64,000 nucleotides of DNA from Planctomycetales bacterium (GTDB lineage: Bacteria; Planctomycetota; Planctomycetia; Planctomycetales; Planctomycetaceae): assembly GCA_026400835.1 (NCBI GenBank), contig JAPLOA010000047.1, positions 1 through 64,000 of the forward strand. Direction: 5' to 3'. Every line of letters begins with the position of its first letter. Positions within the stretch are counted from its first letter, which is position 1. Made by a program: the position numbers and the translations under genes. Below, piece after piece: positions 20,600 to 29,567 of this stretch. The notes beneath the pieces were generated by a model that saw only the letters and a program-made list of their open reading frames with translations, was not told the DNA's origin and did not search any database.

Positions 20600-21226
20600 A
20601 TGATTCGCAAATCTGCAAAAGCATGGCTCGCATTGTTGCTGGTGTCATCAGCAGGATGTAACGCTATTGAAGATCACGTAGTATCGTGCGAAACCAGCAC
20701 GAGAAACATGGTGTTGGCGGAGAAGGGATGGCTGAACTGGGCCTCCTGCTACAAGGATGTCGATTACAAACTCCACTTTTCCAAAGGCTTCAAGGATGGC
20801 TACACCAACATCCTCGAAGGGGGCAAGGGCTGCCAGCCTACTCTGCCACCTCGATGCTACTGGAAACCTCAGTTCCAGACGCCTGCTGGCCGAGCAAAGA
20901 CCAACGCCTGGTTTGACGGTTACTCACATGGAGCGACTGCTGCACAACAGGATGGTTTTGGCAGTTTGCAGCAACTTCCGATTTCTCCAACGGCCCGCGC
21001 CAATTTGATGGCCCGGCAGGCTCCACCTTCGGCCTCCTGCTTTTCAGGAATGTCAAAGCTGGAGGACGCGGATCCCGTCTACCACCCGGATGTTCACGGA
21101 GGAAACTCAGTGGACGAACCGCCTATGGAAATTCTGAAGACACCAGATATTGAGATGCCGCCTGAGTCAAGCATTCCTGAACCAGTCCGTCTCTATGATG
21201 AAGGCACGCCGCCTGTCGAGAAATAA
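20600..21226 (+). CDS. Cys-rich lipoprotein of unknown function
   Basis: 208 residues. The signal peptide ends in SSAGC (Cys20). The mature part has several cysteines and aromatic residues (ASCYKDVDYKLHFSKGFKDGY; PPRCYWKPQFQTP; WFDGYSHGATAAQQDG), then a Pro-rich, acidic C-terminal tail. The FKDGY and WFDGYSHG motifs recall small planctomycete lipoproteins often found next to polysaccharide export genes. I cannot assign a function. It is 163 bases behind the TPR lipoprotein and 123 bases ahead of the Wza-type gene. Confidence 0.75.
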   Translation: MIRKSAKAWLALLLVSSAGCNAIEDHVVSCETSTRNMVLAEKGWLNWASCYKDVDYKLHFSKGFKDGYTNILEGGKGCQPTLPPRCYWKPQFQTPAGRAKTNAWFDGYSHGATAAQQDGFGSLQQLPISPTARANLMARQAPPSASCFSGMSKLEDADPVYHPDVHGGNSVDEPPMEILKTPDIEMPPESSIPEPVRLYDEGTPPVEK

Positions 21227-21349
21227 GATCTAAACGGGCTACTAACGTAACTCAGGAACAATGATTGACTTCAAAGTAGAAGTGAATCTTCAGAGACAGT
21301 TCAAGACGTCCAAAGATGACGTATTCCGGGAATCACGGAGAAGACTGCA

Positions 21350-22678
21350 ATGTCACGCTTAAATGAACTTTTCAGCACCAGGTCAGTTCGAAAAACCATC
21401 GCTTCAAAACGCTTTCGACTTATGGGGCTTCTGACGCTGGCCTCTATGGTTCCCGCGGGCTGTCAGACGATCAATGCAGTTCCAGTCTCGCGTGTACCCG
21501 CAGAGATTCTTTCGACGGAACTGAAGAACAACTACAAAGATATCTCCCTGCTTCGGCTCCGACAGGACCCGCCAGACACATACCTTCTGGGGCCCGGCGA
21601 CGTGCTTGGCGTGTACATCAAGGGCGTGCTTGGTAGTGAAGAAGAGCTTCCGCCAGTGCACTACCCGGAAGACAGCAATCGTCCGCCAGCAATCGGCTAT
21701 CCTGTGCCGATCCGAGAAGACGGCACCCTGGCCCTTCCGATTGTCGATCCGATCAACGTCAAAAACATGTCGCTGGTGGAGGCCACGGAAGCAGTCCGAA
21801 ACGCCTACACGTATCCACGAGAGATCGTGAAGAAGGGCGAAGAGAGCATCATTGTTACGCTGATCCAGTCTCGCAAAGTTCGAGTTCAGGTGATTCGCGA
21901 AGAGGCTGGTGGCACAGAAGGTGTGTCGAAGCGTGGGACTGGCAAAGTTGTTGACCTGCCCGCTTACGAGAATGACGTTCTCCACGCGTTGAATGCAACA
22001 GGCGGTATGCCAGGAACCGATGCAAAGAACGAAATCCTGATCTACCGAGGTTTGTTTCAGTCCGGCGTTGAGGCTGATACAGTCCTGAATCAGGTTTGCC
22101 AGAGCAACTGCGATGACGATTGCCTCTGTAACGAAGCACCGCTGCCTGATCCTCCGAATGTGACTCGCATTCCACTGCGATATAACCCCGCGAATCCGCC
22201 ATCATTCACACAGAATGACATCATTCTGAATGATGGTGATATCATCATCATTCGCAGTCGGGATCGTGAAACATTTACGACTGCGGGAGTTCTTGGCGGC
22301 GGCGAGTATCCTCTGCCTCGAGATAAAGACCTTGATATTCTGGGAGCAATTGCGTTGGCTCGCGGTCCCCTCGGCCAGTCAGGCACAGGAGTGGGAGGTC
22401 TGGGCGGTGGCGGCAACGGTGGCGGAGGCGGCGGTGGTGGACGCGGTAACGTGAATTGCCAACCTTCCGAAGCCATCATTATCCGTGAACTCCCCTGTGG
22501 CAGTTCAATCGCCATGAAGGTCGACCTCAACCGAGCACTCGAGAACCCGTCGGAACGAGTGCTGATCCAGCCAAATGACGTGGTGCTCGTCCGATACACA
22601 CTTGCAGAGGAAGTCGGCAACGTTCTCCTGAACGCATTCCAGATCAACTACCTGCTGGGCAGTGGAATCAACAACTGA
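21350..22678 (+). CDS. Wza-type polysaccharide export lipoprotein
   Basis: 442 residues. The lipoprotein signal ends at VPAGC (about residue 38). The polysaccharide export domain starts near YLLGPGDVLGVYIKG, with the loop REDGTLALPIVDPINVKNMSL, then SLBB-like beta-grasp units (RVQVIREEAGG; TTAGVLGGGEYPLPRDKDLDILGAIALA). Outer-membrane exporters of this family form rings through which capsule or exopolysaccharide leaves the cell. A glycine-rich insert (LGGGGNGGGGGGGG) of ~25 residues interrupts the second SLBB region, encoded at 22390-22450. GGAGA precedes the ATG. A strong hairpin follows the stop, so this ends the lipoprotein transcript. Confidence 0.9.
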   Translation: MSRLNELFSTRSVRKTIASKRFRLMGLLTLASMVPAGCQTINAVPVSRVPAEILSTELKNNYKDISLLRLRQDPPDTYLLGPGDVLGVYIKGVLGSEEELPPVHYPEDSNRPPAIGYPVPIREDGTLALPIVDPINVKNMSLVEATEAVRNAYTYPREIVKKGEESIIVTLIQSRKVRVQVIREEAGGTEGVSKRGTGKVVDLPAYENDVLHALNATGGMPGTDAKNEILIYRGLFQSGVEADTVLNQVCQSNCDDDCLCNEAPLPDPPNVTRIPLRYNPANPPSFTQNDIILNDGDIIIIRSRDRETFTTAGVLGGGEYPLPRDKDLDILGAIALARGPLGQSGTGVGGLGGGGNGGGGGGGGRGNVNCQPSEAIIIRELPCGSSIAMKVDLNRALENPSERVLIQPNDVVLVRYTLAEEVGNVLLNAFQINYLLGSGINN

Positions 22679-22713
22679 TCTTTCAGGTCGCCTTCATAGC
22701 AGCAAACCATTCC

Positions 22714-22744
22714 AACAAACCCGCCGCAATCCGGCGGGTTTGTT
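22714..22744. terminator. Perfect 13-bp terminator hairpin
   Basis: AACAAACCCGCCG (22714-22726) pairs perfectly with CGGCGGGTTTGTT (22732-22744) around a 5-base loop. It lies 36 bases behind the stop of the Wza-type gene. The arms begin and end with A/T-rich ends, so the hairpin can end transcription from both directions, including the decayed kinase gene on the minus strand. Confidence 0.85.
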
Positions 22745-22851
22745 GCGTTTCTGCGACTTCGGCACAAGATCCCGTGCCGGACAAGCTTCGCTGAGGGCTC
22801 ACCAAAAATACTGACCAGTCTGCGAGGGCATTCAGATCCCGTAACCACGGG

Positions 22852-23780
22852 CTATTCAAGCGTCGGCGCAGTGTCATCTGTTCCCGCCAAAAACTTTTCC
22901 TGAACTCGATCACCGAGCTGATGCCCGACGGCGTAGTTCTCAAAGGCCACGGCAACTTCCATCATACCCCTTGGTCGATAGCTGGGTTTCCGATCCAGTA
23001 TCCGATTCAGAAAACCTGCAATATCGAGCGGAAGCTGCGGACATAGACTCTGAATCCGGGGAACACTCGAATCACGAATTGCCATCATCAGCTTCAACGG
23101 ACTTCGACCAGCCTGCTGAAATGGAGTAACACCCGATAACAACCGAAACGCTGTTGCCCCCAGTGAGTAAATGTCCGTAGAACAATCGACGTGATGTGAG
23201 TTCGACAGTTGCTCCGGGGACATATAATCCAGAGTTCCCAAAGTCTGTCCTTCTTCCGTCAAAGTGCTGTCGCAATCCAGTCCACGACTACTCGCCACAC
23301 CGAAATCCAGAATCTTTACCTGAACATGTCCGTCCGGACTTAATGTCAGCATCAGATTGGACGGCTGGACATCGCGGTGAATAATGATCTGCTCGTGAGC
23401 TGCGTAGAGGCCAACAGCGGCTTGCCGAACAATCTCGCTCATGTATGCCAGCATCAGCGACTTCCCATTCGACACCAACGAGCCGACGTCGATTCCGTGA
23501 AGATTGGCATCACAGGATAAAACAACCATTCAGTCATCTCCGAATCAACATACTGCACCATCGCAGGGTGATTCAACCGACGAACGCTGCTGATCTCTCG
23601 CTGAAATCGAGCCTTCGATTTTCGGCAAATCACACAGGGACTATCCGCCCCAGTCTGTGATGCGTTTATCAACATCGTCAGAAGACAGTCATGCGTGGTC
23701 GGTAGCCCACAGGAGCTGGATCCCATCGTCTTCAAAATCAAATCTGCTGCGCGCGTTCTACCAATAACCAGGAAATTCAC
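22852..23780 (-). pseudogene. Decayed serine/threonine protein kinase
   Basis: Two frames together resemble a Hanks-type kinase. The upstream frame (from 23780) has a helix-C-like RFQREISSVRRLNHP and a hinge-like EWLFYPVMP. The reading then has to shift by one frame near 23490-23500 to enter GIDVGSLVSNGK, IIHRDVQPSN (catalytic loop), ILDFGVASS and LDYMSPEQL (activation segment), ending at 22852. The glycine-rich loop and the ATP-binding lysine are absent: the text jumps from an N-terminal leader with HDCLL and ADSPC straight into helix C, which suggests a deletion. It starts where the broken ECF sigma gene ends, overlapping it by 23 bases. No working kinase can be made from this sequence. Confidence 0.8.
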
Positions 23781-24338
23781 GAAGTCTCGCTATCACTCGG
23801 AACCGAGCCTGACGAATTGCGTTTGCCGTCATACTCAAACGCGATGAGATCTCTTCGGGGGGCAGGTTTACTAATGTAGAAAGCCAGAAGGCCTGCCAAG
23901 TTCTCTCCTCGAAGTCTCCTCGAATCATCTCCGCGGCACGCCTCAGGACCTCACCACCGCCGTCCCTTCTTTGCGGTGCTGATTCTTCCCGATTCGAGTC
24001 GGGAATAGCATTCATTCTGACCATCGTGTCGGTTCCACCAACAGAGTTCACACGATGGCGACATCGTTCAAAGTGTTTCGCAGGACATCAGCTCGTGATC
24101 GTTCACAGCCTCCCGCGGAAACTATGGTTCGGGCCAAACTCCAGTCGAGAAATCCCTGCACTGACTCCTCAAAAACCTCCTGGCAGATGTCGGCGGCGTC
24201 AGCTTCCTGAAGACCAGCTTTCCGACACCAAGCGGCAACCAGAGGAGTAGACAACTGCAGGAACGGTCTCCATGCAGTCGCCTCACCGCCCCCGAGGTCG
24301 CTTAGCAGCATCAGTGAAGTTGACCATTGTGATTCCAT
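23758..24338 (-). pseudogene. Decayed ECF sigma factor (kinase-linked type)
   Basis: Region 2 reads TAWRPFLQLSTPLVAAW and LQEADAADICQEVF, starting from an ATG at 24338. After EVF the frame is lost. Adding one base at 24170/24171 restores GVSAGISRLEFGPNHSFRGRL, which matches the end of region 2 in planctomycete ECF factors. A TGA (24103-24105 on the plus strand) then replaces the Trp expected in RGWLWTITR. The same frame continues as HFERCRHRVNSVGGTDTM, then region 4: IRGDFEERTWQAFWL and ANAIRQARFRVIARLREF, stopping at 23758. So there is one frameshift and one in-frame stop. The kinase remnant follows directly, the usual order of ECF-kinase pairs in planctomycetes. Confidence 0.85.
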
Positions 24339-24597
24339 CAGAAACCACTGGTGACAATGCTCCGCCATATATGGATACCGCTCAGTATCCGGGCGAACAG
24401 TACTCTTCGTCCAAAGATTTCAGGCTGTTCTCCCTCAGGAAAAAATTTCCCGCGAGAGCAGTCCGACAGAATGTGAACACCAGACTATGCCTGTGAGATA
24501 CTGCGGGGGCGAGGGCCTTGAGGTAAAGCTTATGAAGTCTGAACAATACTGAGCTTCAAACTCCAGCGGAAGAGGTTGCGATACGCCGCCTTTGCGA

Positions 24598-26508
24598 TTA
24601 CTCGACCGGATCGATTTTGTCATCAACTTCGGGGATTGCTGAAGCCTCACGATCGCCGGACTCGCCAACAGAACTCGACTGGCTCTGCTCGCCTTCAGGC
24701 TGCCCCGCCTTTTGCGTTAACTCCTGCGACGGATCTGCCTGCGGTGCTTCCTCAGCCGTTGTCGCGGGTTCCACCGGTTCTGCTGCCGGAGCAGCCTGCT
24801 CAACCTTAGCGGCTGGCTCAATCAATTTGCGTTCCCGCAGCGTTTGGCCAAGCTGAAGCTTCCAAACACCGTCCTGATCTCTGAGCGTCACAAATCGATG
24901 CGTCACAACGACAATTTCAACATTGATTTCTGAAACTTTAAGCTTCTCAGAAACCTTCAATTGCTCAGTCTTTCCGGTTCCCTTGTTTCTGAACCAGGCA
25001 TACCAGACACCGTCTTTCGATAATGCGGCAGACAGCAACGTCAACGCAGCATTGTCGTCCTGCACATCGAGGGCGATTCTTCGAGACGCCGACTTCGGTT
25101 CTTCTCCCGAATCAGTAACCTTGACTTCGACGTCATACTTTCCCGGAGTAAATGTGCGTGACGGGGTCCACTTCAACTGCCCCGTAACCGCATCAATCGA
25201 CAAGCCTTCCGGCGCTCCTGCACCCAGCGAATACTTCAAAGACGCCGTCGGACCATCGTCTGTCGCCGTGGCTGTCTCCGCAAATTCTCGCCCAATCACA
25301 ACGATGGCTGATTCGGCCAGCGTCAGCACCGGAGGCTGATTATCACTCCTGATCGTGAACTTCACCTTCGAATTCAGCTTGAGTTCCGGATTGCCAGACT
25401 GAGTCAACATCACCGTCGTTGCGTATTCTCCGGCACCCATCGTCTCCGCAGGCTTCCAGGCAAATTCTCCGGTTGCAGAATTGATCGACATGCCTTCCAC
25501 AGGTTCCGCGAGCGAAAACTGCGGCTCGCCAAACTCCGGATTGAAACTCTCCGCTCGCACCGTGAACTTGACTTCTTCGCCCGGCTTAATCGTTTTGTCG
25601 CTAACTCCAGCCAGACGCGGATTCCACGTCTTTGGCGGCGATGGTATTACGAAGACTGACCCTTTCACGAAATCCGCATATTGCTCCAGTGTCTTCTCCT
25701 GACGATCCCACGCCACAGGCAATAGCTCAACGGTGGACTTCTCCGGATGCGCAGCCGCTTTGGTTCCACTGAACCCTCGTTGAACTTTCCAGGCTGATCC
25801 GTCAACAGCTTCAACTCGCAACAACTCCCGTTCAACTCGCACCAGAAACGGCCGGAATGGATCTTCGATGATAATCGACTCGTTCGGCACAACACTGATT
25901 TCAGCAGCACTCTCGCTGATCCCGCTCGTGATCGTGGTACGGGGCTGCAGTTCCGTTTTGTCATCGCCCCCAATGACACTCATTCCTTCGGCTGTGAACG
26001 AAACGAGCAGCCGCGGATTTCCCTGAGCCCCCGGGCTGTCTATTTTCATGGCAGAGATTCGATGCAGCATATCCGCCTGATCGAATAGAAACAGAAATCG
26101 TGTCAGCCCCTGAAGATCTGTCTCGGCCTTCTTCACCTCAACGCCAACAGTTCCAAATTCTTTCTGCTGCGATCTCGCGCCGGGAGTCACCTCAAAGCCT
26201 GGACCACTGAAGCCACACTGTCGAGTCAACTCGTGTAGCCATTCCCGATACAGGCGTTGAGCGTCGTCCTGATTCTGAGGCAGGCTGATGTACTTCCAGT
26301 CATCCAGTTTCTTCCGCGCAACCTTGAATTTGATCTCCTGAAGTTTCAGAGATTCATTCTCGGCGTTGGCCATATTCAGATTTCTCTGCAGGTCGCGAAT
26401 CGGTTTCATCAGAAACCCGTCCAGCGTCGACCTCAGACTGTATACGGCAATCACCGCGACCAGACCTGCAGCAAGAATTTTTGTGCGTTTCTTTTCATCC
26501 ATTTTCAT
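24598..26508 (-). CDS. PilO-like membrane protein with Ig-like domains and possible PilP/GspC-like end
   Basis: 636 residues. One membrane helix at ~10-25 is followed by a coiled-coil and a ferredoxin-like region (~30-180), the layout of PilO/GspM. Two Ig/cadherin-like putative domains follow (~300-495); each has the He_PIG pattern, G(M/L)SI(N/D)xxTGxxxWxP. Residues ~500-570 (SAALSKDGVWYAWFRNK; VTLRDQDGVWKLQLGQTL) look like the small beta domain of PilP or GspC, which contacts the secretin. The tail is low-complexity Pro/Ala/Glu. The start overlaps the stop of the PilM-PilN-like gene by one base (TAATG). The pair would form the inner-membrane alignment complex of a type IV pilus or type II secretion machine. 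Domain calls after residue 200 are inference. Confidence 0.7.
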   Translation of the reverse strand: MKMDEKKRTKILAAGLVAVIAVYSLRSTLDGFLMKPIRDLQRNLNMANAENESLKLQEIKFKVARKKLDDWKYISLPQNQDDAQRLYREWLHELTRQCGFSGPGFEVTPGARSQQKEFGTVGVEVKKAETDLQGLTRFLFLFDQADMLHRISAMKIDSPGAQGNPRLLVSFTAEGMSVIGGDDKTELQPRTTITSGISESAAEISVVPNESIIIEDPFRPFLVRVERELLRVEAVDGSAWKVQRGFSGTKAAAHPEKSTVELLPVAWDRQEKTLEQYADFVKGSVFVIPSPPKTWNPRLAGVSDKTIKPGEEVKFTVRAESFNPEFGEPQFSLAEPVEGMSINSATGEFAWKPAETMGAGEYATTVMLTQSGNPELKLNSKVKFTIRSDNQPPVLTLAESAIVVIGREFAETATATDDGPTASLKYSLGAGAPEGLSIDAVTGQLKWTPSRTFTPGKYDVEVKVTDSGEEPKSASRRIALDVQDDNAALTLLSAALSKDGVWYAWFRNKGTGKTEQLKVSEKLKVSEINVEIVVVTHRFVTLRDQDGVWKLQLGQTLRERKLIEPAAKVEQAAPAAEPVEPATTAEEAPQADPSQELTQKAGQPEGEQSQSSSVGESGDREASAIPEVDDKIDPVE

Positions 26509-27974
26509 TAGCCCGATGCTGATTCCGGATCCGCAGGGAGCGAAACTTCCAGAACTATCTGAACACCATAATCCTGTGACACCGCCGAAGCGCGGTACTC
26601 CGGCTCAAACGGCTTCACTCCGTAGCCCGCATCGCGAAGCTTCCGCGCCAGTTCGTTAACATCCGACTCAGACTTCGCAAACCCAACAAGCTTCACTGAC
26701 GGCGACGCTCCACGCTGGATTGCAGAGAATTGGAAACTGTCGATAAACATTCTGTCTGTTGCCGGAAGAATGGCTTTTAGGCGAACCATTTCATCCAGCC
26801 ATTCAACATCTCGATTCACCCACTCTGAAACACTTTCAGACTGAGTCATCTCCTTGCTGCCTGCTTGCAGCATTTCTTTGATCTCAGCATTCTCTGTATC
26901 TACCAAATACTTGACGTCAGCAAGCTCATTGATCTGCCCCTGTCGCCAAAAGTACCCGCCGGCCACAATAATCACGCCGGCCAATGATCCCAACAGAACT
27001 CGAAGCCGTCGCAAATCCTTCTTCGCCGGCGCACGACGAGGATTGATCAGGTCCACAACCTCAACGCCACTCGCCGCTTCACCCAGAATCGCCCCCGCAA
27101 GTGTCACGATATCGGCGGAGTTAATTCCCTCTGGCAACGCACCGGATAGAAATGCATCAGCCGGGTTGACTCGCTCAATTCGAGCCCCATCCAACCGAGT
27201 CGAAATCTGATCGGTCACTGCCGAGGTGACTTCCGGAGCACCAATCAGAATGACTCGATCGATCTTATGCTCGCCCAGAATCTCGGCCGCAGACATCCGT
27301 GCTCGGGTCAGCTCCGCACGAATCGTCTTCTCGACGGTCTCCAGAGATGTCCACGAGCTGCCGCTGTGCGAAAAGACAACCGAGGTGCCTCGAACGAAAG
27401 TCAGCTCGATAAAGTCCCGCCGCATCACGGCAACGACATCGACCTTTTCCAGGTCGGCTGATTCTCGCAGGAATCCCGCTCGAGCAGCCGCCTGAGCCAC
27501 ACAATACGCACTGACGCGAACTTCAGACAGCTCCAGACCCGCATCATTCAATGTTCTTCGTGCCACCGCGACCTGATCGCTGGGCACGGTTACCAGCAGG
27601 ACGTCTCGCGTCGCGCTGCCCGGCTGAATTGGAAGCGGGGTAAAGTCCATGCAGACCGATTCGACAGGGACCGTCAGCCGCATAGACGCCTGCAGCCGAA
27701 TCATGTCCGGAATTTCGCTGTCCGGCACCTGAGGCAACTGGATGCGGTGAATCGTGACCATCTGCCGAGGAAACACGATCGCAACTGAGGCACGCTTGCG
27801 ATCCGTACCCACCGGAAACAACTGCTTCAGTTGATCAACCAACAAGAGCGTGTCGTTTGAATCCGCCTGACGCTCAAGGATTCTGACCAGCCGGAACTGA
27901 GCTTTCTCGCCTGCAGCAGTCCCCTCTGCGACGACCAGCCGGTCGCGATCCCATTCGATGAACTTGTCTGCCAT
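26508..27974 (-). CDS. PilM-PilN-like (GspL-like) fusion protein
   Basis: 488 residues. Residues 1-~305 have an actin-like fold pattern of PilM: FPRQMVTIHRIQLP, SAYCVAQAA, then a nucleotide-pocket-like DVVAVMRRDFIELTFVRG and RVILIGAPEV. At 307-314 comes VDLINPRR, like the PilN peptide (INLLPxR) that binds PilM when the two are separate. A membrane helix spans ~325-343, followed by a coiled coil and a ferredoxin-like periplasmic domain (PSVKLVGFAKSESDVNELARKL), as in PilN/GspL. It should be the cytoplasm-to-periplasm link of a type IV pilus-like or type II secretion assembly. It is the first gene of a two-gene unit; no secretin, pilin or assembly ATPase is in the window. Confidence 0.78.
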   Translation of the reverse strand: MADKFIEWDRDRLVVAEGTAAGEKAQFRLVRILERQADSNDTLLLVDQLKQLFPVGTDRKRASVAIVFPRQMVTIHRIQLPQVPDSEIPDMIRLQASMRLTVPVESVCMDFTPLPIQPGSATRDVLLVTVPSDQVAVARRTLNDAGLELSEVRVSAYCVAQAAARAGFLRESADLEKVDVVAVMRRDFIELTFVRGTSVVFSHSGSSWTSLETVEKTIRAELTRARMSAAEILGEHKIDRVILIGAPEVTSAVTDQISTRLDGARIERVNPADAFLSGALPEGINSADIVTLAGAILGEAASGVEVVDLINPRRAPAKKDLRRLRVLLGSLAGVIIVAGGYFWRQGQINELADVKYLVDTENAEIKEMLQAGSKEMTQSESVSEWVNRDVEWLDEMVRLKAILPATDRMFIDSFQFSAIQRGASPSVKLVGFAKSESDVNELARKLRDAGYGVKPFEPEYRASAVSQDYGVQIVLEVSLPADPESASG

Positions 27975-28283
27975 ATTTCGGGACCCGCGATTTACATGAC
28001 GCCAAACGACAAACCTGATTCTATGCCAAATTCTGAACGAGTATCCCGAGTGAATTCAGCGATTCCGGCCAACTTTCGAGCCAAACCGAATCAGTTACCC
28101 CTATATGAACACCACAACGGGCATCGTGGGGCCGCTGTTCGGAAGAAACAAGCATAGGTTCTCCATGTTAGCTCGTCCGTGTTGGAATCTGCTGATTTTT
28201 CCAATTTTCCGTCCGGCTACACCTTCCGCCCGGCAAATTGGGCGATTGTGCGTCGCCACACGCCCCGGAAGGATTGCAGATGA
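27975..28283. other. Spacer, nothing recognised
   Basis: 309 bases between hemA and the PilM-PilN-like gene, both on the minus strand. It must contain the promoter of the pilus-like unit and the end of the hemA transcript. I see no clean terminator hairpin, RNA gene or repeat. Confidence 0.5.
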
Positions 28284-29567
28284 CTACTCCGAACGAAAGA
28301 AAAACAGCCGACGAATAGCGTGCAGCAGCCCCTCAGGGGTGCCTTCCTTCGCTTCGTCCTTCAGTGCTTCCAAAGGCGGATGCAGGAGCTTGTTAACGAT
28401 CCGCTGAATCGTCGCTTCAATTGCCTGTCGCTGAGCACTCTCCAGCGTCGGCAGTTTACGATACAAACGATCCAACTCCGAACGGCTAATGTCTGTCCAG
28501 TGCTCACGCAGACGATGAATCACCGGGCCCGTCGCACGATGATAAATCTCCTGCATGAATGTTCGCGTCTGAGCAGCAATAATCCCGCGAGCCTTCTCAA
28601 CCTCGGCTTCTCGGGCGGCGCGGTTGCGGCTGCAGGTTTCTTCCAGAGCATCCAGGTCATAAAGGAACACGTGATCGTCGACGGTTCCCGCGGCCGGATC
28701 GAAGTCACGCGGTGCCGCCAGATCCAGAATAAACACCGGATGTCGCTGCGAGCGTGCTCGGGCTGCCGCAAAGCGTTCCTTCGTGATCAAAGTCTGAGAC
28801 GCCCCAGTGGTGCTGACGATGACATCGGCTTTGGCCAGCCATTCGTCCAGCGTTGAAAAATCTACCGCCTCACCCTTGAACTGCGCGGCCAAACGCTCGG
28901 CTCGTTCGCGGTTGCGATTCGCCACGACAATTCGTTTCACGCCCTCGGATTGCAGATAAGTCAGCGTCTCTTCCGCCATCTCCCCCGCACCGATGACGAG
29001 CACGGTTTTGTTGTCAAAACGGCTGAAGATGCTTTTTCCAAAATCGCCCACGGCCACGCTGGCGATCGAAACTCGCCCGTCGGCCAAACCCGTTTCCGTG
29101 CGAACCTGTGCTGAAACTTTCAAAGCATGCTGGAACAGAACGTTGGTCAACGGACCGCAGGCTGCGTTCTCCTGAGCAACCCGATAAGCCTCTTTGACCT
29201 GATTCACAATCTGCGGCTCACCCAGCACCATACTGTCGATGCTGCAGGCAACTTCGAAGAGATGTTCTACAGCCGCAGTTCCTGACTGAGCCAGTACGGA
29301 ATGCACAAACTCATCAGTGGGGACATTGTGAAACCGGCTAATGAAACGAGTAATATCGTCGAAGGAAACTCCGTCATCATCCCGTTCATCGGCCGCGTAG
29401 ATCTCAACCCGATTGCACGTGGAAAGGACAACCAGCTCAGAATCCGGATGAATCTCACGCCATTGCGAATAAGCGTTATTCAGCAATTCAGAATTCGAAA
29501 ACGCCAGACGCTCACGCAGCTGAACTCCGGCCTTATGATGATTACAACTGATGACAAGAACGTTCAC
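28284..29567 (-). CDS. hemA: Glutamyl-tRNA reductase HemA
   Basis: 427 residues, the usual length. It reduces glutamyl-tRNA(Glu) with NADPH to glutamate-1-semialdehyde, the first committed step of tetrapyrrole synthesis in the C5 pathway. The catalytic Cys51 lies in STCNRVEIYA. The tRNA/substrate-binding motif SIDSMVLGEPQIVNQVKEAY and the NADPH Rossmann motif VIGAGEMAEETL are present, followed by the C-terminal dimerisation helices (RLREHWTDISRSELDRLYRKL). The start overlaps the stop of the CcsA/HemX-like gene by 4 bases, the common bacterial hemX-hemA arrangement, so the two are coupled. Confidence 0.97.
   Translation of the reverse strand: MNVLVISCNHHKAGVQLRERLAFSNSELLNNAYSQWREIHPDSELVVLSTCNRVEIYAADERDDDGVSFDDITRFISRFHNVPTDEFVHSVLAQSGTAAVEHLFEVACSIDSMVLGEPQIVNQVKEAYRVAQENAACGPLTNVLFQHALKVSAQVRTETGLADGRVSIASVAVGDFGKSIFSRFDNKTVLVIGAGEMAEETLTYLQSEGVKRIVVANRNRERAERLAAQFKGEAVDFSTLDEWLAKADVIVSTTGASQTLITKERFAAARARSQRHPVFILDLAAPRDFDPAAGTVDDHVFLYDLDALEETCSRNRAAREAEVEKARGIIAAQTRTFMQEIYHRATGPVIHRLREHWTDISRSELDRLYRKLPTLESAQRQAIEATIQRIVNKLLHPPLEALKDEAKEGTPEGLLHAIRRLFFFRSE

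Follow-up and report, generated by a model that had tools for sequence, protein, structure and literature searches.

Planctomycetes encode numerous ECF sigma factors and kinases, and for most of these no function is known. The available text of PMC8999054 lists ECF59, ECF61, ECF62 and ECF217 under 'phosphorylation', with planctomycete examples, and according to the accessible part of PMC8103513 the STPK-regulated ECFs, ECF59 included, have an uncharged DAED motif. The excerpts of PMC8103513 and PMC13147305 that deal with ECF43 (EcfP/PknT in Vibrio and EcfK/PknS in Xanthomonas) state that the neighbouring kinase phosphorylates and activates the sigma factor, and that in this group the acidic DxxD of region 2.2 has typically given way to uncharged residues, with phosphorylation occurring on one of these. 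The locus analyzed here shares with the planctomycete STK-linked ECFs (ECF59/61/62/217), as that text of PMC8999054 presents them, a Hanks-type kinase gene immediately behind the sigma gene and a planctomycete host; kinase and sigma genes also adjoin in ECF43, as the excerpts describe it. The difference is that the present pair is dead. In the titles and abstract openings of mostly non-subscription literature we found no paper on the decay of ECF-kinase pairs in Planctomycetes.

Results

The window, i.e., the whole stretch of DNA that was analyzed, consists of 64,000 nucleotides of contig JAPLOA010000047.1 from a Planctomycetales bacterium (assembly GCA_026400835.1; genome G000 in what follows). 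On its minus strand, from 24368 to 22852, lie a dead ECF sigma factor gene and then a dead Ser/Thr kinase gene, with parts of the two proteins spread over consecutive frames. A sequence-only reading had proposed that both genes are broken, and comparison with the syntenic copy of a congener, the MAG Planctomycetaceae bacterium isolate RE-26jul17-197 (G015, contig CANHVD010000011.1), located lesions in each. The features of the locus, with lesions called from the nucleotide alignment of the window and G015, are as follows:

23758 to 24368, minus strand: ECF sigma factor pseudogene; probable original start ATG at 24338, stop TAG at 23760-23758
gap between 24171 and 24170, minus strand: 1-base deletion in the sigma gene, frameshift after QEVF relative to G015
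24103 to 24105, minus strand: in-frame TGA in the sigma gene; TGG in G015 (Trp 89), W in 14 of 22 homologues
24088 to 24090, minus strand: second in-frame TGA in the sigma gene; CGG in G015 (Arg 94)
22852 to 23780, minus strand: Hanks-type Ser/Thr kinase pseudogene, overlapping the end of the sigma gene as in G015
23610 to 23618, minus strand: kinase gene, junction left by the in-frame loss of 315 bp (105 codons), break at 23618/23617
gap between 23502 and 23501, minus strand: 1-base deletion in the kinase gene, frameshift relative to G015
23365 to 23367, minus strand: catalytic-loop lysine replaced by Gln (K244Q), HRDVQPSN versus HRDVKPSN; K in 31 of 31 homologues and kept in G015
21350 to 22678, plus strand: open flanking gene of 442 aa, which we take to be export-protein-like; 98% identical in G015
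22713 to 22745, no strand: strong inverted repeat in the spacer that separates the convergent export-like gene from the dead kinase gene
24598 to 26508, minus strand: open flanking gene of 636 aa; 96% identical in G015

The probable start of the sigma frame agrees with the end coordinate given by the sequence-only reading, and an alternative ATG is present at 24368. The 225-aa ORF at 22852-23529 (minus strand) matched the Pkinase profile PF00069 with an E value of 1.4e-24 and 87.4 bits, above the Pfam cut-off of 31.7, over profile positions 88-253 of 263 only. The ORF at 23758-24051 (minus strand) matched sigma region 4 with an E value of 5e-4 and 20.1 bits, under the Pfam cut-off of 25.7, while the ORF at 24048-24368 (minus strand) matched region 2 with an E value no better than 0.077. 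On TIGR02937, the NCBIfam profile for ECF sigma factors, the window ORFs scored 21.3 and 11.3 bits (cut-off 42.9). The kinase match is by itself well beyond chance, and the identity of the sigma gene is settled, by alignment, through the relative in G015.

When the kinase ORF was compared with 58 relatives, a 90% identical match was found in G015 (residues 10-225, within a 417-aa open frame), and the remaining relatives reached at most 47% identity among the matches listed. The G015 pair is flanked by the same two neighbours as the window pair and is the intact copy, aligning across the frame changes, that the sequence-only reading had expected. Its sigma gene (L004:2720-3331, minus strand) is open over 203 aa, or 193 aa counted from the ATG matching 24338, and has RGWLWTITRR where RGWLWTITR had been predicted. 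The protein scored 54.0 bits on TIGR02937, 40.1 bits on Pfam Sigma70_r2 (cut-off 24; region 2 spans residues 39-102) and 20.0 bits on region 4, under that profile's cut-off. The kinase gene is open (414 aa), overlaps the sigma end, and encodes GRGGMG, ALK, HRDVKPSN, DFG and SPE, with 158.2 bits on PF00069. Since the G015 orthologue scores above the ECF cut-off and the window ORFs score below it, what remains in the window is an ECF sigma factor pseudogene. The case that would speak against this, i.e., that the frames are separate proteins, was looked at: the sigma frames correspond to one protein in G015, and so do the kinase frames.

The differences from G015 include two 1-base deletions, two in-frame TGA codons, one 315-bp in-frame deletion and the loss of the HRDxK lysine. 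The sigma product also carries W87R at a position where W is found in 22 of 22 homologues and is kept in G015. The sequence-only reading had correctly placed the deletion after QEVF and the TGA at the Trp of RGWLWTITR, and the frame change that it saw near 23495 in the kinase gene could be assigned its exact place. It had also noted that the glycine loop and the ATP lysine are missing. They are, but the lost 315 bp contain both GRGGMG and the ALK lysine, so their absence is one event and not gradual point decay. An 8-bp direct repeat, CGAAGGCT, borders the lost stretch in G015, and the window retains one copy (23617-23610); among the deletions of 30-1000 bp that could be made anywhere in the G015 pair, 0.018% have flanking homology of at least 8 bp. 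Judged by the motifs of Hanks-type kinases (glycine loop, ATP Lys, HRDxKPxN, DFG and SPE/APE), the window copy falls short: the catalytic-loop D, DFG and SPE are kept, and the glycine loop, the ATP Lys and the Lys of HRDxK are gone. The claim that sigma region 4 and the kinase catalytic loop are still readable holds in that both are recognisable, but the catalytic lysine has been lost.

Single-base deletions account for two of the lesions, and one of these adjoins a T run, as might be seen if both genes were intact in the organism and the sequence or its assembly were in error. Base-calling error is very unlikely, however, because besides the 1-base gaps there are two stops produced by substitution, a clean in-frame deletion bounded by a repeat, and the loss of catalytic or invariant residues, including the otherwise invariant lysine. 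Replacement changes are also in excess (see below), and in alignments with G015 the five flanking genes are open. We regard an error in sequencing or assembly as highly improbable.

The dN/dS ratios between the window and G015 were calculated by the Nei-Gojobori method, with gapped codons and stop codons excluded. They were 0.473 for the sigma gene (200 codons) and 0.319 for the kinase gene (307 codons), and 0.116, 0.067, 0.123, 0.016 and 0.029 for the five flanking genes; the replacement-to-silent counts of the dead pair and the flanking genes differed with a Fisher p of 5e-11. The control was a single orthologous open ECF-kinase pair, G000:C51 / G015:C171, for which dN/dS was 0.067 (sigma) and 0.141 (kinase), and dS was 0.126 and 0.149, similar to that of the dead pair. 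Against this pair the replacement-to-silent counts gave Fisher p values of 0.0008 (sigma) and 0.0027 (kinase). The loss had been described as recent. It does postdate the split from G015, from which the dead genes are separated by a dS of 0.16-0.19, yet it is not recent at the level of strains. Provided that G015 has evolved as the control did, near neutrality would cover much of the window branch for the sigma gene and a smaller part for the kinase gene. Decay could occupy much of the window branch since the split.

The final 215 codons of the kinase gene, which are still open, had a dN/dS of 0.26, below the rest of the pair, indicating that they either died later or are weakly constrained. 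An expressed, non-catalytic remnant of 225 aa (22852-23529), acting as a scaffold or decoy, would account for both the open frame and the lower ratio. The N-lobe motifs and the catalytic-loop lysine are gone, however, an open frame would be expected with an upstream frameshift and young decay, and the ratio would average in the constrained branch of G015. We consider such a remnant a long shot. The sigma ORFs at 24048-24368 and 23758-24051 are likewise both open, and they could be thought of as two separate functional small proteins, one with region 2 and one with region 4. But the sigma factor is a single protein in G015 and in 21 aligned homologues, the frameshift (residue 66/67) falls within region 2, the region-4 ORF begins past both stops, and the two parts have dN/dS values of 0.47 and 0.39. 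Among the matches listed from 150 family genomes, no split form was evident outside G000. Two functional halves are next to impossible, and the data are best explained by decay of both genes.

Replacements were assigned to the window or the G015 branch using 22 sigma and 31 kinase homologues, the outgroups being distant (38-57% identical for sigma). The ratio of window to G015 changes was 20:7 for sigma (5 of 32 undecided; p 0.019) and 10:6 for the kinase (15 of 31 undecided; p 0.45); together they gave p 0.014. Counted in the sigma figure are both stops, as well as three positions ahead of the likely start codon that depend on one homologue each. When the stops and the pre-start positions were left out, sigma changed to 15:7 (p 0.13) and the sum with the kinase to 25:13 (p 0.07). 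Polarisation thus points weakly to the window branch.

The inverted repeat at 22713-22745 is unchanged in G015, inside a less conserved spacer. By eye it is terminator-like, and it has perhaps been retained for the export-like gene. Over the region 20600-29567 of the window, dS with respect to G015 changes stepwise, from 0.07 (28284-29567) and 0.06 (26508-27974) to 0.15 (24598-26508), and on the other side to 0.24 (21350-22678) and 0.26 (20600-21226). A boundary left by recombination between lineages may possibly explain these steps.

A DNA search of 18 genomes of the genus with the G015 pair as the query produced a full-length match in G000 and G015 only. Matches of any kind were found in 11 of the 18, the others being short pieces of the kinase part or the export-like neighbour. 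In an even draw of 150 family genomes, G000 and G015 among them, the sigma factor ranking next among the matches listed was 57% identical and belongs to another genus (G034), where a kinase start follows and runs to the contig end. As judged by these searches, close relatives of the pair are sparse within the genomes covered. In the congener G017, no pair was found on the pair side of the export-like gene, where a different 152-aa ORF is open at the contig end about 660 bp off the gene. In the congener G004, the match to the 636-aa neighbour ends at residue 543, near the contig end, and the site of the pair is not covered.

The sigma-family profile A1, built from 22 rows, matched 20 sequences in G000, 16 in G015, 12 in G004 and 9 in G017. 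The five best matches in G015 (C11, C297, C110, C406 and C38) each have an adjacent kinase, and the sister sites of the four pairs other than C11 were searched in G000, G004 and G017. The C406 pair is open in G015. At its site in G004 the first 41 sigma codons are fused to an 82-bp kinase piece, followed by the 3' part of the kinase gene, and in G017 about 50 sigma codons are fused to another, 146-bp stretch of the kinase gene; most genus genomes compared are fragmented drafts, and these junctions could be assembly faults. The two deletions overlap and are not nested, so neither derives from the other, and at least two of the losses look independent. In G000 both flanks are present and enclose 307 bp, against 2072 bp in G004; a tblastn search using the C406 and C11 proteins (E 0.01) detected no trace of the pair. 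The C110 block of G015 (C110 3218-8921) consists of 5.7 kb with a kinase gene, a sigma gene and a gene for 612 aa. Its site has 243 bp in G000 (C29:17789-18033) and 214 bp in G004, with flanks kept and both aligning straight through, and the data fit either a gain in G015 or a loss elsewhere. The searches with C297 found weak, scattered matches only (64-79% identity) in G000, G004 and G017, and those with C38 found scattered matches mostly outside the pair, many of them in repeat-rich genes; no sister site was located for either pair. The turnover of the family that had been suggested from the window locus is supported by the two further loci, C406 and C110. On the other hand, G000 retains open adjacent ECF-kinase pairs at C51, C67 and C28, which cautions against making too much of these losses.

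For other sigma genes of this family, no kinase was detected nearby. G000:C35:171127-171348 encodes a 77-aa sigma fragment, about 74 residues of which are 54% identical to the start of the C406 sigma factor of G015; two kinase queries found no kinase in the surrounding 7.5 kb. G000:C58 has a full-length sigma gene 1.6 kb from the contig end, with no kinase detected. The same was the case for an N-terminally truncated sigma gene in G004 (C164:1687-2112) and for another (C61:471-1019) that lacks roughly 31 residues from the part joining region 2 to region 4. Among the sigma matches listed from the family genomes, four in other genera (G169:C849:561-1121, G097:C70:20042-20605, G172:C1:2407977-2408573 and G152:C431:942-1505) have one in-frame stop each and are possibly decayed relatives.

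Discussion

The window almost certainly contains a true pseudogene pair, open in the sister species at the same site, and its lineage has lost the module. An open orthologue in synteny, disabling lesions in both genes and raised dN/dS were found, together with a weak polarisation toward the window branch. The ancestor of the window species and G015 would have had a two-gene module, formed by an ECF sigma factor and a Hanks-type kinase gene overlapping the sigma end, in which the kinase presumably controlled the sigma factor. Selection on the module would have lapsed in the window lineage, and the module would have gathered frameshifts, stops, the 315-bp deletion and substitutions at catalytic or invariant positions. 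The large deletion probably occurred by slippage or illegitimate recombination between the 8-bp direct repeats. The sigma product of the window should not work because the frameshift cuts region 2 and leaves regions 2 and 4 in separate frames, and the kinase product should not work because the ATP-binding N-lobe motifs and the catalytic-loop lysine have been lost.

Frameshifts, stops and short-repeat deletions are ordinary routes to bacterial pseudogenes, and the window pair has all these types of lesion. It differs from ordinary pseudogenes in that two adjacent partner genes died together and that comparable fates are seen at sister loci within the genus. The locus is of a known kind, i.e., pseudogenes of an STK-linked ECF pair and an ordinary loss of a signalling module.

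By analogy with the described systems, the G015 kinase probably controls its sigma factor. At each of the positions D57 and D60, 21 of the 22 aligned sequences of the family have D and the remaining one has E. The uncharged replacement of DxxD that typifies ECF43 is absent, and the switch described for EcfP cannot be carried over unchanged. The retained acidic residues also speak against ECF59 as the accessible part of PMC8103513 describes it. If the mechanism in G015 is phosphorylation, it probably uses sites other than DxxD; sites in the linker, as the available text describes for EcfK, are possible. The Planctomycetaceae-specific subfamily 1 (TIGR02984) was considered as well, and the G015 sigma factor scored 29.2 bits on this model, which requires 183.75.

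The loss at the window locus can be dated after the split of the species and stands beside an open sister copy, which makes it a natural knock-out. Comparing the genomes and expression of the window species and G015 could show which genes depend on the module. The second locus, C406, deleted differently in two congeners, indicates that the loss is repeated and not a one-off, a point of modest general interest. We put at about even the chances that gain and loss of ECF-kinase pairs in the genus affect entire units and recur at the same sites, with the genes around them left in place. If this is true, the pair would be an evolvable regulatory plug-in with a short lifetime, and species would differ in their sets of modules.
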